Assembly: GCF_001463745.1 (NCBI RefSeq)
Contig: NZ_BBWJ01000028.1
Location: 1-64,000, forward strand
Direction: 5' to 3'
Length of the DNA stretch: 64,000 nucleotides
From: Aureimonas sp. AU22
GTDB lineage: Bacteria; Pseudomonadota; Alphaproteobacteria; Rhizobiales; Rhizobiaceae
The notes beneath the pieces are model-generated. The model saw only the letters and a program-made list of their open reading frames with translations. It was not told where the DNA came from and searched no databases. The position numbers and the translations under genes were made by a program. This document shows, one piece after another, positions 57,320-64,000 of the stretch. Position 1 is the first letter of the stretch, and each line of letters starts with the position of its first letter.

Positions 57320-58930
57320 TCAGTCCTCGTCGGCCGCCATCTGCGACAGGATCTGACCGCGACCGCGAGCGCGCAGGATCATCGGCACCACCAGCGCCAG
57401 CACCGCGAGCGTCAGGAGGGCGATGGCGAGCCAGGAATGGACCAGGATCGACGGATCACCCTGGCTGATGGCGAGTGCGCGGCGGAGCTGCTGCTCGGCC
57501 ATCGGCCCGAGGATCAGGCCGACCACGACCGGGGCGATCGGATAGCCGAAGCGGCGCAGCATGTAGCCGATCAGACCGAAAAGCAGCAGCATGCCGAGCT
57601 CGACCGGCGAGGGGTTGGCGCCGATGCAGCCGAGCGTCGCGAAGACGAGGATGCCCGCGTAGAGCCAGGGGCGCGGGATCGTCAGCAGGCGCACCCAGAG
57701 GCCGATCAGCGGCAGGTTGAGCACCACCAGCATCAGGTTGGCGATCAGGAGGCTGGCGACGAGGCCCCAGACGATCTGCGGCGAGGTGATGAAGAGAAGC
57801 GGGCCGGGCTGGAGCCCGAACTGCTGGAAGGCGGCGAGCATGATTGCGGCGGTGGCCGAGGTCGGCAGGCCGAGCGTGAGGAGCGGCACCAGCGTGCCGG
57901 CGGCGGACGCGTTGTTGGCGGCTTCCGGGCCCGCCACACCCTCGATCGCGCCGTTGCCGAACTCCTCCGGGTACTTCGTGAGGTTCTTTTCCATCGAATA
58001 GGAAAGGAAGGTGCCGATCTCGGCGCCGCCGGCCGGCATCGCGCCGATCGGGAAGCCGACCGCGGTGCCCCGCAGCCACGGCTTCCAGGACCGCTTCCAA
58101 TCCTCCTTGGTCATCCAGAGCGAGCCCGTCACCGCTTGGACCGTGTCGGGCGTGCGGGTCGCGGCGGCCGCCACCACGAGACACTCGCCGATGGCAAAGA
58201 GCGCGACGGCGAGCGTTGTCACCTCGATGCCGTCGAGAAGATTGGCCGAGATGCCGCCGAAGAGCCCGGCGAGTGAGGCCCAGAGACCGTGCATAGAGGC
58301 GGCGGGGTCGGCGGCCATGCCCTGGAAGTACTGGGCGATCGGCGTCAGCGTCAGGCGGGCCTGTCCGGTCTGGAGGTCGATGCCGACGAGGCCGAGCGTC
58401 AGGCCGAGGACGAGCGCGGTGAGGCCGCGCAGCGCCGAGTCGCCGAACGCCGCCGACACGGTGACGAAGGCGAGCAGCATCAACGCGAAATACTCGGCCG
58501 GGCCGAACGACAAGGCGAAGGAGACGATGACCGGCGCCAGGAAGGCGAGTCCGAGCGTCGCGATGAGCCCGGCGACGAAGGAGCCGATCGCGGCGGTCGC
58601 GAGCGCCGGTCCGCCGCGGCCCTTGCGGGCCATCTTGTTGCCCTCGAGCGCGGTGATGATCGACGCGCTCTCGCCCGGCGTGTTGAGGAGGATCGAGGTC
58701 GTCGAGCCGCCGTACATGCCGCCGTAGTAGATGCCCGCGAACATGATCAGCGAGCCGGCGGCATCGAGCTGGTAGGTGACGGGCAGGAGAAGCGCGACGG
58801 TCAGCGCGGGGCCGATGCCCGGCAGCACGCCGACGGCGGTGCCGAGCGTCACGCCGATCAGCGCGTAGAGGAGGTTCATCGGCTGGGCGGCCGTCGCCAG
58901 GCCTTGACCGAGAAGCGCGAAGGTATCCAT
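57320..58930 (-). CDS. tctA: Tripartite tricarboxylate transporter large permease TctA
   Basis: TctA is the large membrane subunit of a secondary transporter that uses a periplasmic binding protein, TctC, and a small permease, TctB. The 536-residue protein has about eleven to twelve hydrophobic segments. Family signatures are [37 protein letters not shown] and [19 protein letters not shown]. It is the last gene of tctC-tctB-tctA, 96 bases downstream of tctB, and ends before a bidirectional terminator. Substrates of this family include citrate and other carboxylates; the exact one cannot be read from sequence. Confidence 0.95.
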
Positions 58931-59026: not shown

Positions 59027-59515
59027 TCAGCCGAAGAGGCGTTCCAACGGACCGGCCGGCAGCGCAAGGTTCAGGACCTTCGTGAACATCAGCCAGATGG
59101 CGAGGCTGAGAAGGATGCCGACGGGGATCGACACGTAGAGCTTGCGCTTGCCGAAGGCGCGGGCGGTGGCCGCGAAGAGAAGGCCGGTGGCGATGGAGAA
59201 GCCGGCGGTGGTCAGGAGCAGAAGCTGGGCCGCGAGGCCGCCGACGATCCAGACGATCGGAGCGAACTCGTCGTGGTCCCGCTCCGGGAAATCGCCGCGC
59301 CAGGCCTCCACCATCGTCCAGCCGGCCAGCCCCAGGAGCGCGGCGCCGATCAGGAACGGAAAGGTCGCCGGCCCGATGCGCGCATAGGCGCCGCCGCCGA
59401 TCTGGCTGGCGTCCAGAAGCACGAGAAGGCCGAGAATTCCCAGGCCTATGCCGATGGCAAACGCCGCCCGGTCGGGGCGGCGTTCGGTCGGCTCATGGTC
59501 CGACGGGGCGGTCAT
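59027..59515 (-). CDS. tctB: Tripartite tricarboxylate transporter small permease TctB
   Basis: The 162-residue membrane protein has four hydrophobic segments (GIGLGILGLLVLLD, FPFLIGAALLGLAGW, IVWIVGGLAAQLLLLT, LYVSIPVGILLSLAIWLMF) and the ARIGPATFPFLIG motif typical of TctB. The ATG overlaps the tctC stop by one base (TAATG), which fixes the start and indicates coupled translation. It completes the tripartite set with TctA and TctC. Confidence 0.93.
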   Translation of the reverse strand: MTAPSDHEPTERRPDRAAFAIGIGLGILGLLVLLDASQIGGGAYARIGPATFPFLIGAALLGLAGWTMVEAWRGDFPERDHDEFAPIVWIVGGLAAQLLLLTTAGFSIATGLLFAATARAFGKRKLYVSIPVGILLSLAIWLMFTKVLNLALPAGPLERLFG

Positions 59516-60465
59516 TACTGGACGAGGCCGATCGCGGTGAGGACGGTCCGGGTGTCCTCGATGTTCTTGGCGAGTTCGGTCTTGAAGGCGTCGCCGGCGA
59601 GGAACGTGTCCACCCAGTTGTTGCGCTCGAGGACCGCCTTCCATTCCGGCGTCTGCACCATCTTCTCCATGTTGGCGATGACGGCGGCCGTCTCCTCGGC
59701 CGAGATGCCGGGCGCGCCGGCGACCATGCGCCAGTTCTGCAGTTCCATGTCGATGCCCGCTTCCTTCAGCGTCGGCGCCTGCGAGCCCTTGACGCGCTCG
59801 GCGCCGGTGGTGGCGAGAAGGCGGAGCGTGCCGGCCTGCACCTGGCTTTCGAACTCGCCGTAGCCCGAGATGCCGGCCGCGACCTGCTGGCCGAGAATGG
59901 CGGCGAGCGCCTCGCCGCCGCCCGAGAAGGCGATGTAGTTGATCGCCTTCGGATCGGCGCCGACGGCCTGGGCCAGAAGGCCGGCCGCGATGTGGTCAGT
60001 GCCGCCGGCCGAGCCGCCGGCGATCGCCACGGCGCCGGGGTTCTCCTTCAGCGCCTTCACGAGATCGTCGATCGTCTGGTAGGGCGAGGACGCCGGCACC
60101 ACGATGGCCTCGTCCTCACCGGTGAGGCGGGCGAGCGGCGTGACCTGGTCGAGGGTGACGGGCGACTTGTTGGTGAGGATCGCGCCGACCATGACGTAGC
60201 CGCCGACGAGCAGGGCGTTCGGGTTGCCCGACTTGGTGGACACGAACTGCGCGAGGCCGATCGTGCCACCGGCGCCGGGGACGTTGACGACCTGCACGTT
60301 GCTGGCGAGCTTGGATTCCTGCAGCACGTTCTGCATGGCGCGGGCGGTCTGGTCCCAGCCGCCGCCCGGCGAGGCGGGCGCCATGATCTCGTAGGCGGGC
60401 GCCTGGGCGAAGGCGCTGGTGGACACGAGAAGCGCGGCGAGCGCGCCCAGAAGCATGGACTTCAT
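59515..60465 (-). CDS. tctC: Tripartite tricarboxylate transporter substrate-binding protein TctC
   Basis: TctC captures the carboxylate in the periplasm and delivers it to TctAB. The 316-residue protein has a signal peptide ([20 protein letters not shown]) and the Bug/TctC fold with [34 protein letters not shown] and a C-terminal helix region. The start ATG at 60463-60465 has GGGAGGA about nine bases upstream. The gene is downstream of the TctDE-type regulators on the same strand, with a 231-base gap holding a direct repeat that may be the regulator's site. Confidence 0.95.
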
Positions 60466-60594
60466 GAATAGATCCTCCCGAATGGCGACGCGTGGCGTCC
60501 CAGGACAACGATGGATGGTCGCGGGGAGGGCGGCGCACGATGATCGCGTCGGCTTCGGGTGACCGCGTCGCCCCTCCAGGCTCTTCGGTCGATC

Positions 60595-60696: not shown

Positions 60697-63342
60697 TCAT
60701 TGCGGTGCAACGATCTCCATCCACGTGTCCAGAAACCGGGCACGGCGCTGGCGGTCGAGCCCGACCAAGAGCGAGGGCCCGAGCGGCACGGGCTGCACGG
60801 CGCCGCGCCCCAGCGCCGCGATGCTCTCCGCCGTCCAGCGCCCCGGCGATCCCGGCACCACGGCGCCGAGCGCGGCGGAGCCGGCGAGGATCGCCTGGCC
60901 GTCCGCCGACAGGGCGAACTGGAGGAAGGCCTCGCCGAGATCGGGACGCCTGGCCCCGACCGGCACGAACATCGAGCGGGTGACCACGAGGACGTAATCG
61001 TCTGGCACCACGATGCCGATGCGCGCGCCCGCCGCCTGGCGCGCGAAGGCATAGGAGCCGAGAACGTTGTAACCGAGCGCGAGGTCACCGCGCTCGATGC
61101 CGTCGAGGATGGCGGGGCTCGCGCCCGACAGGCGCACGCCGGCTCGGCCGAATGCGCTGGCGAGACGCCAGAAATAGGACGAGACCGACTGATCCTGCGC
61201 GGCCAGCATGTAGCCGACCCCGGAGCGCGCGACGTCGTAGGTCGCGATCCGGCCGGCGAGGCGCACGGCTTGGCGCTCGAGGAGTTCGGCAAGCTCCAGA
61301 TGGCTGCGCGGCACCTCGTCCTCGGAGATGATGTCGGGGTTGTAGACGATCACCGCCGGCTCGAAGGTGAAGCCGAAGAGCTCCGAGCGCCATTGCGCCC
61401 AACCCGGCAGGGACGCGGCGCCGGACAGGGTCAGGCCTCGTGCGAAGCCGTCGTTCACGAGCTTGACCTGCAGGTCCGAGGCCGAGCTCATCATGATGTC
61501 GGGCTGCGGGGTCATCCCCTTGGCGAACGCCTCGTAGATGCCCAGCGTCTCGCCCTCGTCGTAGGCGACGGTGACGTCCGGCCGCTGCATCTGGAAGCCG
61601 CGCACCAGATGGGCGAAGAGGGCGGTGTCCGTGGCGCCGAGGATGGTGAGGCGCGCGCCCTGCGATCCGTCGGGCGCGGGATAGATCGTCTCGGCGGCGC
61701 CGGCCCCCCCGATCGGCAGCAGCAGGACGGCCAGAAGCAAGAGAGCCGCGAGCGCGCGGGGCGGGCCGTTGCCGCCGCCGGTGTCCGCCCGCGGCAGGGC
61801 GAGGCGCACGAGGAGCCCACCGCCCGGCCTGTCCTCCAGGCTGATGCGCCCGCGCTGCGCCTCGACCGCGCGCCGGACGATGGCAAGGCCGAGGCCCGAT
61901 CCGTTGGTGCCGCCGGAGGCCGCGCCGCGGCGAAAGCGCGCGAACACCGCCTCGCGCTCGTCCACGGCGATCCCCGGTCCCCGGTCGGCGACATCGATGC
62001 CGACCGTGCCGTGGGCGAGCGCGGAGACGGCGATCTCCACCGGCCCGTCGCTGTAGGTGAGCGCATTGTCCACGAGGTTGCGCAGCATCTCGCGAAGCAC
62101 CACGCGGTCGGCGCCGAGCGTGGCTTCGGTGAGACCCGTCTCGATCCGCACGGTGACGCGATCGGCCAGGTCCGGATCCAGCCGGCGCACCACCTCGGCC
62201 ACCACGGCGCCGATGGGCGTCGCGCCGACCGGGGCGGTGTCGAGGCGATGCGAGATGGTGGCGTCCATGAGGAGCTGCGAGACGAGCTGGCTCGCCTGCA
62301 CCGCCTCGTCGTGGATGCGCGCGACCTGGGCGCGCAGGGCCTCGGGGTCGCGCTCGCTGCGCGCCACCTCGGCCTGGAGGCGCAGCGACGCGAGCGGCGT
62401 GCGCACCTCGTGCGCGGCTTCCGCCACCAGGGCCTCCAGCCGTTCGCGCGCGAGAGCCAGCCGGGCCATGAAGTCGTTAAGCGCGCCGACGAGCTGGGCC
62501 GCTTCCAGCGGCACCGGCAGGTCCAGGGGGGCAAGGTTCTCCGGCGCGCGGGCCCGCAGGTGGCGCTCCAGCGTTAGGAGCGGCCGGAAGGCGCGGCCGA
62601 TGCCGAACCAGAGGATGGCGAGGGCGAGGAGCAGGAGCGCCACGACGGGAAGCAGCGCGTTGCCGAAGATCTCGCGGGCGAGCGCCTGCCGCTCGCCGAG
62701 CGTCTCGGCGACACGCACCGTCGCCCAGCCGGTGCCCGACGCCGTCGAGACGAGGCGCCCGGCGCTCGCCACGCGCACCCGCTCGCCGCGATAGACGGCA
62801 TCCGCGAAGGTCGGCTCGCTGTCGTCTTCCGGCGCCAGGCCCTGCGACAGGTCGGGATAGCCGGTGACGTTGGTGCCATCAGGCGCTTCCACGGCATAGA
62901 AGATGCGGTCCCGACCGGAGAACATGGCGAAGGAGGCGAGCGGCAGTTCCACCGTCACCTCACCCTCCTCGAGCTGAACGGCGCCCGCGATGGTGAGCGC
63001 CGAGGCCCCGAGCAGCCGGTCGAAGGCCCGCTCGGAGGCGCGTTCGGCATAGTCGCGGACGAAGGCGACGAGGACGAGGGCGGCCAGAAAGAGAAGAAGC
63101 GTCGCGGCGACGAGCACCCGGCGCCGGATGGAAACGGACCGTGGAGCCCGGACCGGGGCCTTGCCGGATCGGTCGGCCGCGACGTTTCGCCCCTCACCAG
63201 GGAGCGAGCCGCAAGTCTCGTCCGGTCCCCCGGAGCGTTGCCGCTGCCCGCCGGCGCCATCGGCCGCGTCACGCGCCTCGCCGTGGGGCGACGATGTCCC
63301 GCCCGGACTCTCTGCGGAGGCGTCGTTGCGAGCGCTATCCAC
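60697..63342 (-). CDS. TctE-like sensor histidine kinase fused to a periplasmic solute-binding domain
   Basis: The 881-residue frame begins with GTG at 63340-63342, overlapping the response regulator by eight bases. A hydrophilic region of about 70 residues leads to TM1 (RRVLVAATLLLFLAALVLV), a periplasmic 2CSK-type sensor domain and TM2 (LLPVVALLLLALAILWF). A HAMP-like linker is followed by HisKA with His311 (EAAHEVRTPLAS) and an ATPase domain ending near 520 (GSGLGLAIVRRAV). Without a stop comes a third hydrophobic segment, ALAALLLLAVLLLPIGGAGA (about 528-548). A family-type solute-binding protein of about 330 residues then follows (LTILGATDTALFAHLVRGF, GYNVLGSYAFARQ). In related loci these are usually separate genes. 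Confidence 0.88.
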   Translation of the reverse strand: MDSARNDASAESPGGTSSPHGEARDAADGAGGQRQRSGGPDETCGSLPGEGRNVAADRSGKAPVRAPRSVSIRRRVLVAATLLLFLAALVLVAFVRDYAERASERAFDRLLGASALTIAGAVQLEEGEVTVELPLASFAMFSGRDRIFYAVEAPDGTNVTGYPDLSQGLAPEDDSEPTFADAVYRGERVRVASAGRLVSTASGTGWATVRVAETLGERQALAREIFGNALLPVVALLLLALAILWFGIGRAFRPLLTLERHLRARAPENLAPLDLPVPLEAAQLVGALNDFMARLALARERLEALVAEAAHEVRTPLASLRLQAEVARSERDPEALRAQVARIHDEAVQASQLVSQLLMDATISHRLDTAPVGATPIGAVVAEVVRRLDPDLADRVTVRIETGLTEATLGADRVVLREMLRNLVDNALTYSDGPVEIAVSALAHGTVGIDVADRGPGIAVDEREAVFARFRRGAASGGTNGSGLGLAIVRRAVEAQRGRISLEDRPGGGLLVRLALPRADTGGGNGPPRALAALLLLAVLLLPIGGAGAAETIYPAPDGSQGARLTILGATDTALFAHLVRGFQMQRPDVTVAYDEGETLGIYEAFAKGMTPQPDIMMSSASDLQVKLVNDGFARGLTLSGAASLPGWAQWRSELFGFTFEPAVIVYNPDIISEDEVPRSHLELAELLERQAVRLAGRIATYDVARSGVGYMLAAQDQSVSSYFWRLASAFGRAGVRLSGASPAILDGIERGDLALGYNVLGSYAFARQAAGARIGIVVPDDYVLVVTRSMFVPVGARRPDLGEAFLQFALSADGQAILAGSAALGAVVPGSPGRWTAESIAALGRGAVQPVPLGPSLLVGLDRQRRARFLDTWMEIVAPQ

Positions 63343-64000
63343 CTTCGCGCACCCGCGCGACGTATCCCGAACCCCTCACGGTGCCGATCTCCAGCGCCGA
63401 GCCCTCGAGCTTGCGGCGAAGGCGCGAGACGTAGAGCTCCAGCGCGTTGATCGAGACCGCCTCGTCGAAGGAGAAGAGCTGCGCCATGAGCTGTTCCTTG
63501 CCCACCACGACGCCCGGCCGCGACAGGAGGATCTCGAGCAGGCGGAACTCGCGGCGCCCGATGTCGAGACGCTCGCCGCTCCGGCTCACCGCGTGACCCG
63601 CAAGGTCCACCGTGACGTCGCCGAAGGCCGAGACGCTGGAGGTCTGGCCGGCCGGGCGGCGCAGAAGCGCCCGCAGGCGGGCGTCCAGCTCGCGAAGGTC
63701 GAAGGGTTTCACGAGGTAGTCGTCGGCGCCCTGGTCGAGGAGGCTCACCTTGTCGTCGATCTCGGAGCGCGCCGTCATCACCAGGATCGGGACGGCCGAA
63801 CGGGCACGGCGGACCTGCGAGATCACCCAGAGCCCGTCGCGGCCGGGCAGCGTCAGGTCGAGGATCACGGCGTCGAACGTGTCGAGCCCGAAGGCCTCCA
63901 CCGCGTCTTCGGCGCTGCGCACCCATTCCACGGCATGGCCCGCGCCCCGCAGGTGGCGGTTCACCGCATCGCCCAGTCCCTCGTTGTCCTCCACCAGGAG
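63335..64000 (-). CDS. tctD: OmpR-family response regulator, TctD-like (5' end outside window)
   Basis: The visible 221 residues start within the receiver domain (LLVEDNEGLGDAVNRHL) with phospho-acceptor LDLTLPGRDGLW and Lys in YLVKPFDLREL. They continue into a winged-helix DNA-binding domain (RREFRLLEILLSRPGVVV, INALELYVSRLRRKLEG, IGTVRGSGYVA). The first one or few codons lie beyond the right edge. It overlaps the kinase gene by eight bases and, with it, should regulate tctCBA in response to external carboxylates. The name follows from gene order and family. Confidence 0.88.
   Translation of the reverse strand, partial: LLVEDNEGLGDAVNRHLRGAGHAVEWVRSAEDAVEAFGLDTFDAVILDLTLPGRDGLWVISQVRRARSAVPILVMTARSEIDDKVSLLDQGADDYLVKPFDLRELDARLRALLRRPAGQTSSVSAFGDVTVDLAGHAVSRSGERLDIGRREFRLLEILLSRPGVVVGKEQLMAQLFSFDEAVSINALELYVSRLRRKLEGSALEIGTVRGSGYVARVREGG

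Follow-up and report, generated by a model that had tools for sequence, protein, structure and literature searches.

Does a sensor kinase whose reading frame runs on into a complete periplasmic binding protein give rise to one receptor or to two proteins? The question is posed by a gene of Aureimonas sp. AU22, located on the reverse strand at 60697–63342 of the first 64,000 nucleotides of contig NZ_BBWJ01000028.1 (the window). It consists of a single frame of 881 residues, stop-free throughout, in which a TctE-type histidine kinase is followed by a third hydrophobic segment and a complete solute-binding protein (SBP). We conclude that this fusion is a genuine single gene and propose, with a probability of about 0.6, that it encodes a polyprotein; signal peptidase I would probably divide it into a kinase and a citrate co-receptor in the periplasm, and these two would jointly control tctCBA.

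The kinase half fits a TctE-type (2CSK_N) sensor histidine kinase, with 2CSK_N, HisKA and HATPase_c domains and two flanking transmembrane segments (TM1 and TM2). TM1 (residues ~74–94, 63061–63123) and TM2 (residues ~229–249, 62596–62658) were located by hydrophobicity and fall within long helices of a structural model (residues 72–121 and 215–264, respectively); all features of the gene lie on the reverse strand. Pfam places the 2CSK_N sensor domain at residues 84–225 (62668–63093; PF08521, E 3.1e-36), the HisKA dimerization/phosphoacceptor domain at residues 303–363 (62254–62436), and the catalytic HATPase_c domain at residues 412–518 (61789–62109). The third segment (residues ~529–549, 61696–61758) precedes the predicted mature SBP (residues 550–881, 60700–61695), which matches SBP_bac_11 over residues 566–820. 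Each of the four Pfam matches is above its own cut-off, and all 27 members of an alignment of fused proteins match the same four families at E ≤ 0.001. His311 of HisKA is invariant in these 27 sequences. Since the first ~65 residues are poorly conserved among relatives, the exact start codon of the kinase is uncertain within the first ~65 codons, and may lie further in.

A frameshift or a false assembly join could mimic such a gene, and a homopolymer does sit at the junction. The run of seven C at 61704–61710 is present; it covers two Gly codons and the opening base of the Ala547 codon, outside the mature SBP and just ahead of the putative cut. Because close relatives hold the same frame on both sides of it (for example, LLLLPAGGAGAAETVYPAPDGS in L043/L076), the run is not a frameshift. 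Other genomes also keep one frame across the junction, and the genes of Azospirillum and Peteryoungia are annotated as one coding sequence, named “extracellular solute-binding protein”. The sequencing error suspected at this run in an earlier reading made from the letters alone (the sequence-only reading) is thus refuted, and an artefact has practically no chance of being the explanation. What that reading had observed directly, a continuous frame from a kinase into a complete binding protein, is upheld by the open frame, by Pfam and by 19 of 20 other Aureimonas genomes, which give a single-frame match from about query residue 44–68 to the end; no match to the fusion protein at E ≤ 1e-40 was found in G313. 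One TGA was reported inside the match in G311 and G314; as open frames of 864 and 829 codons cover query residues 48 or 66 to 881, it falls in the poorly conserved N-terminal part.

The same fusion recurs well beyond the genus. We compared 142 loci (L001, L010–L056 and L058–L151, some genomes being present twice), leaving aside own-genome paralogues (L002–L008) and duplicates (L009 and L057); kinase and SBP share one frame in 108 and are unfused in 34. The unfused set includes L136, which is cut off by a contig end, and the fused set includes L142 (Devosia sp. A8/3-2), in which the gene appears broken, with an open frame of 501 residues holding parts of both kinase and SBP. The 108 fused loci encode 84 distinct proteins, counting the partial L102 and L142, from at least the following groups: Aureimonas, Devosia, Pelagibacterium, Labrys, Mesorhizobium, Pararhizobium, Inquilinus, Skermanella, Yoonia and other Rhodobacteraceae, and Alcaligenes (named relatives are the best 80 of 103). 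Six further distinct fused proteins were added: four of Azospirillum, one of Peteryoungia and the product of a second gene copy in G310; 20 of 32 plasmid records were covered, and 4 of 11 Azospirillum records and the Peteryoungia record were analyzed. An order-level survey matched the SBP at E ≤ 1e-25 in 80 of 297 genomes, from which 30 loci were taken for closer analysis. Five of 385 genomes in a class sample matched at E ≤ 1e-75: that of the window, two with confirmed fusions (G577 and G656), one with the kinase only and one with the SBP only. The matches in a phylum sample (6 of 398 genomes) were the window's own, four kinase-only and one SBP-only; both samples were scored at two candidates per genome with a strict threshold, at which weaker fusions can be missed. 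Some long open frames, such as those of L036 (823 residues), L022 and L024, were considered as further fusions and rejected, the kinase being in another frame. The fused gene of L139 (NZ_VCCH02000072.1), labelled Mycobacterium sp. KBS0706, is nested with Inquilinus limosus in the SBP tree on very short branches, and this record is probably mislabelled or contaminated. The second G310 copy (L162, G310:C2:243009-245375) is a very divergent fused kinase-SBP beside the orthologue, its SBP being 31% identical and on a very long branch.

What the junction does to the chain is the central issue. Across the 84 proteins, the linker is variable in both length and sequence and is followed by a short hydrophobic core, a few residues, a small-x-small site and the mature start, which is often YPAPDGS-like. 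A proline or glycine separates the core from the cut site in 76 of the 79 rows with the landmark. The third segment is also less hydrophobic than the membrane segments of the same proteins: its median over 19 residues is 1.94, near the 1.88 of the signal peptides of unfused SBPs, compared to 2.52 for TM2 and 3.02 for TM1, although the minimum hydrophobicity shows that the TM1 window is misplaced in some rows. An [AV]xA site, counted if within 15 residues of the segment and with no proline directly after it, follows the third segment in 69/84 proteins, TM1 in 20/84 and TM2 in 19/84, the two TMs serving as control; the expected fractions in shuffled sequences are 0.57, 0.59 and 0.31, respectively. 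Signal peptides of SBPs at unfused loci carry such a site in 27 of 34 cases. Measured from the mature-start motif, which is present in 79/84 rows, a strict site is found in 59 of the 79, with 40 of these 59 at one distance; 500 shuffles gave a mean of 29.4 and a maximum of 41. The site picked by the script lies away from the usual place in L087, L092, L093 and L130, three of which have a site there by eye, and a small-x-small site is visible by eye in the six added fused proteins. The 84 rows are related by descent, so that these counts are not independent; the linkers nonetheless differ strongly between genera. In the window protein, the cut is expected at A547-G548-A549/A550, within AGA/AE. 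Thus, the third segment has the character of a signal peptide, and these sequences appear to be better explained by a signal peptide that was kept, along with its signal peptidase I site, than by a membrane anchor. If so, the chain more likely matures into two proteins, a kinase and a free periplasmic SBP.

The unfused relatives suggest how such a junction could arise. Listed under ARRANGEMENTS and origin, the 34 unfused loci comprise 11 with kinase, then SBP, in tandem and 4 with the SBP first; the two genes are on opposite strands at 13 more, and no related kinase was seen at the last 6, L136 included. At each of the 11 loci in tandem order, the stop codon of the kinase and the start codon of the SBP share four bases, ATGA in ten and GTGA in one, in shifted frames; one insertion or deletion at this overlap would suffice to join the frames, with the signal peptide staying where it is. 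For 116 SBPs, a tree requires 5 changes between fused and separate states; a more careful tree of 44 representatives requires 6, and well-supported branches force 4 of these. L136 and L142 were excluded, and the trees are unrooted and count fusions and splits alike. Rows L162, L068 and L069 are on long branches, which makes the number of separate fusion events uncertain, and we therefore quote the minimum of changes from supported branches. L069 may be a separate fusion, since it groups with the unfused L067 at full support (both branches being long). Devosia L122 and L127 lie inside the fused clade, yet their SBP is a separate gene upstream of the kinase, an order shared by Bartonella L141 and L144. 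Together, the tree changes and these separate genes indicate that the fusion is probably recurrent across lineages and that a tether is seemingly not essential; the fusion probably arose several times from gene pairs with the four-base overlap. The separate SBP of L122 (Devosia sp. YR412; just upstream of 5977) carries LVAC in its signal region, which we take to be a possible lipobox, and this SBP may presumably be a lipoprotein.

The sequence-only reading suggested that the SBP half could provide TctC-like capture, which is not what we find. It matches SBP_bac_11/8/1/6 and groups over the whole domain, by both sequence and fold, with the metal-citrate-binding MctA (7f6 series) and with 3c9h from Agrobacterium. 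A TctC domain was rejected, as Pfam gives no PF03401 match at E ≤ 0.01, whereas the real TctC, the SBP of a tripartite transporter, is encoded by the next gene downstream (59515–60471; PF03401, E 1.3e-24). It is followed by TctB (59027–59515; PF07331, E 1.7e-20, obtained on the longer mechanical open frame 59027–59644) and the TctA permease (57320–58930; PF01970, E 2.4e-144), all on the reverse strand. The TctB start was placed by reading at the ATG at 59515, and relatives were compared without the first 42 residues of the longer frame. Upstream of the kinase, also on the reverse strand, lies a TctD/OmpR-type response regulator (63335–63994; Response_reg and Trans_reg_C by Pfam), which overlaps the listed kinase start by 8 bases and whose frame is open to the end of the window, so that its start may lie beyond. 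Its best NCBIfam match is TctD, at 183 bits, below the TctD cut-off of 337. An OmpR-type regulator adjoining the kinase, with tct transporter genes nearby, is the setting expected for a TctE-type kinase. Of the six MctA residues that carry mutations in the 7f6 structures, the SBP half keeps five, the exception being S26. The MctA relationship and the tct operon support the carboxylate sensing proposed in the sequence-only reading, and the SBP may bind (metal-)citrate or a similar carboxylate, the sensing itself remaining conjectural. A full-text search gave no useful literature on MctA among the matches listed.

As MctA and 3c9h are titled SBPs of ATP-binding cassette (ABC) transporters, the fused SBP could instead serve transport, by an ABC or the Tct transporter, with its fusion to a kinase a by-product of gene order. 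We consider this very improbable: no PF00528-type ABC permease occurs within ~18 kb, the transporter here has its own TctC, and the SBP relatives stay with the kinase gene in several arrangements. This linkage, whether fused, tandem, divergent or with the SBP first, is as in SBP-dependent three-component systems of the BctC-BctE type.

Several points weigh against the polyprotein proposal. The cleavage of the fusion chain is read from sequence, in an alanine-rich junction where shuffling alone already gives an [AV]xA expectation of 0.57 among related rows, and L092 lacks a good cut site at the usual place. A hydrophobic region of ~14 residues could in principle remain in the membrane. The N-termini of the separate Bartonella SBPs are more hydrophobic (2.57 and 2.73), and one of the two is without a strict [AV]xA site; these SBPs are possibly membrane-anchored, so a membrane-held form may work. 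In the locus comparison, the regulator was found in both Bartonella loci, and no TctA, TctB or TctC was found there. Most fused SBPs have Thr, Val or Ala at the position of MctA Ser26, so that the ligand may differ from that of MctA. Adjacency is not always a functional link, either: a Pseudomonas report describes tests in which the sensor of a kinase and an SBP encoded next to it showed no interaction (PMC11113362). The junction is also compatible with internal initiation, as 82/84 fused genes hold at least one ATG, GTG or TTG there, and Shine-Dalgarno-like matches of at least 4 are somewhat commoner at the junction (0.39 of 194 codons) than in the kinase (0.28 of 2280), such matches of at least 4 occurring in 45/84 genes and of at least 5 in 18/84.

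The points concerning the membrane bear on the arrangement originally proposed, a receptor tethered in one ~90 kDa chain, in which TM3 would hold the SBP beside the kinase's own sensor and the two receptor domains of one polypeptide would talk. A frame kept continuous across many genera, and probably gained more than once, speaks for it, as does the anchored appearance of the Bartonella SBPs. The third segment's lower hydrophobicity than TM1 and TM2 and its positioned [AV]xA site, the unconserved linker and the separate genes of close relatives all argue against it. A full-length model (pTM 0.47) also shows no helix of four or more residues at 521–549, where pLDDT is below 50; this is weak evidence, as the alignment is poor there, and the model is too weak to tell whether the SBP and sensor touch. 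We regard an uncut chain as unlikely, although worth keeping in view. Of the topology in the sequence-only reading, the fusion and the domain order stand, as would the N-in/C-out direction of the third segment; TM3 as an anchor is less well supported, given its hydrophobicity and [AV]xA site.

The start-like codons bear on a different possibility, that translation starting at a codon within the end of the kinase supplies some or all of the SBP, with little of the long product being made. Conservation of start codons, assessed in 73 of the 84 proteins, does not favour it: among 20 Aureimonas rows, no column has a start-like codon in 60% of rows, and a second set of 55 rows, two of them also in the first, has just one such column, a valine within the ATPase domain. 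Moreover, were internal initiation the sole route, an open frame across the junction would not be required. We judge this explanation distinctly improbable.

Under the polyprotein proposal, the kinase half (TM1, 2CSK_N, TM2, HisKA and HATPase) would be made first and keep its place in the inner membrane. Behind the ATPase domain, the third segment, presumably once the signal peptide of a downstream SBP gene, would send the SBP through Sec, and signal peptidase I would cut at A-G-A/A. Two products at 1:1 would follow, a TctE-type kinase and an MctA-type SBP that is soluble in the periplasm. Once it carries (metal-)citrate or a similar carboxylate, the SBP would bind the 2CSK_N sensor domain and switch the kinase, which would phosphorylate the TctD-like regulator and so adjust tctCBA. 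The single reading frame would take the place of the translational coupling given by the four-base overlap in tandem unfused relatives. Signalling may also be regulated by the completeness of chain cutting. The broader generalization, a recurrent signalling polyprotein comprising a kinase and its own periplasmic co-receptor, exported by an internal signal peptide, freed by signal peptidase I at 1:1 and placed beside the kinase, seems to us somewhat better than an even bet.

Bacterial polyproteins are rare. In the cytochrome b/c1 polyprotein FbcH of Bradyrhizobium, which was not among the matches listed in literature searches, a single chain comprising two proteins carries an internal signal sequence and is then cut, as experiments reportedly showed. 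FbcH belongs to a respiratory complex, whereas the Aureimonas fusion joins signalling proteins and its cleavage is predicted. We know of no bacterial polyprotein that joins a sensor kinase to its own periplasmic co-receptor. A signal peptidase cut between a membrane part and an extracellular domain is also described for Staphylococcus LtaS, which is cut by SpsB (PMC11898559); LtaS differs in being a Gram-positive synthase that the cut inactivates or regulates.

The closest functional parallel is in Bordetella, where the citrate-loaded SBP BctC is reported to be required for the kinase BctE to raise bctCBA expression (PMC5812351, PMC9602780). BctC-BctE-BctD/BctCBA and TctDE-TctCBA resemble the Aureimonas locus in pairing a two-component system with a tripartite citrate transporter, a periplasmic SBP being needed for the citrate response of the kinase. 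The Bordetella co-receptor is the transporter's own TctC-type SBP, encoded separately, whereas Aureimonas has a second, MctA-type SBP in the kinase frame. From the BctC-BctE case, we propose the same logic here, with a dedicated MctA-type SBP in equal numbers with the kinase; the fusion would be a variant of SBP-dependent three-component signalling. MctA and 3c9h differ in being titled SBPs of ABC transporters. BvgS and EvgS also combine a kinase and SBP-type (Venus-flytrap) domains in one chain (PMC8534201). Their SBP domains serve as the periplasmic sensor of the kinase itself and come before its catalytic core, whereas the SBP of Aureimonas follows the ATPase domain.

This architecture has probably been tallied before. 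For three of four strains, the available text of a survey of Azospirillum two-component systems lists one classic kinase with an SBP_bac_1 “input domain” (PMC4618731). As Azospirillum has the fused gene, this is probably the same protein; that text does not discuss a C-terminal position, a signal peptide or cleavage. Titles and abstract openings yielded no paper on a kinase with a C-terminal SBP among the matches listed. If the chain is cut, records naming the whole product “extracellular solute-binding protein” mislabel the kinase and hide a second protein; if it is uncut, a receptor sits beyond the catalytic core of the kinase, on its far side. The natural series of overlapping and fused genes, divergent genes and SBP genes placed upstream makes the effects of SBP:kinase ratio and tethering on signalling directly testable.

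On the Azospirillum plasmids of L152, L159 and L161, genes for a Tct permease, a TerC-family protein and a universal stress protein lie ahead of the regulator gene and the fused gene; in L160 (A. thermophilum), other genes precede the fused gene and a malic enzyme gene follows it. Opposite the fused gene of the window, the forward strand is open for 625 codons at 60700–62577, seemingly a shadow frame of G+C-rich coding DNA.
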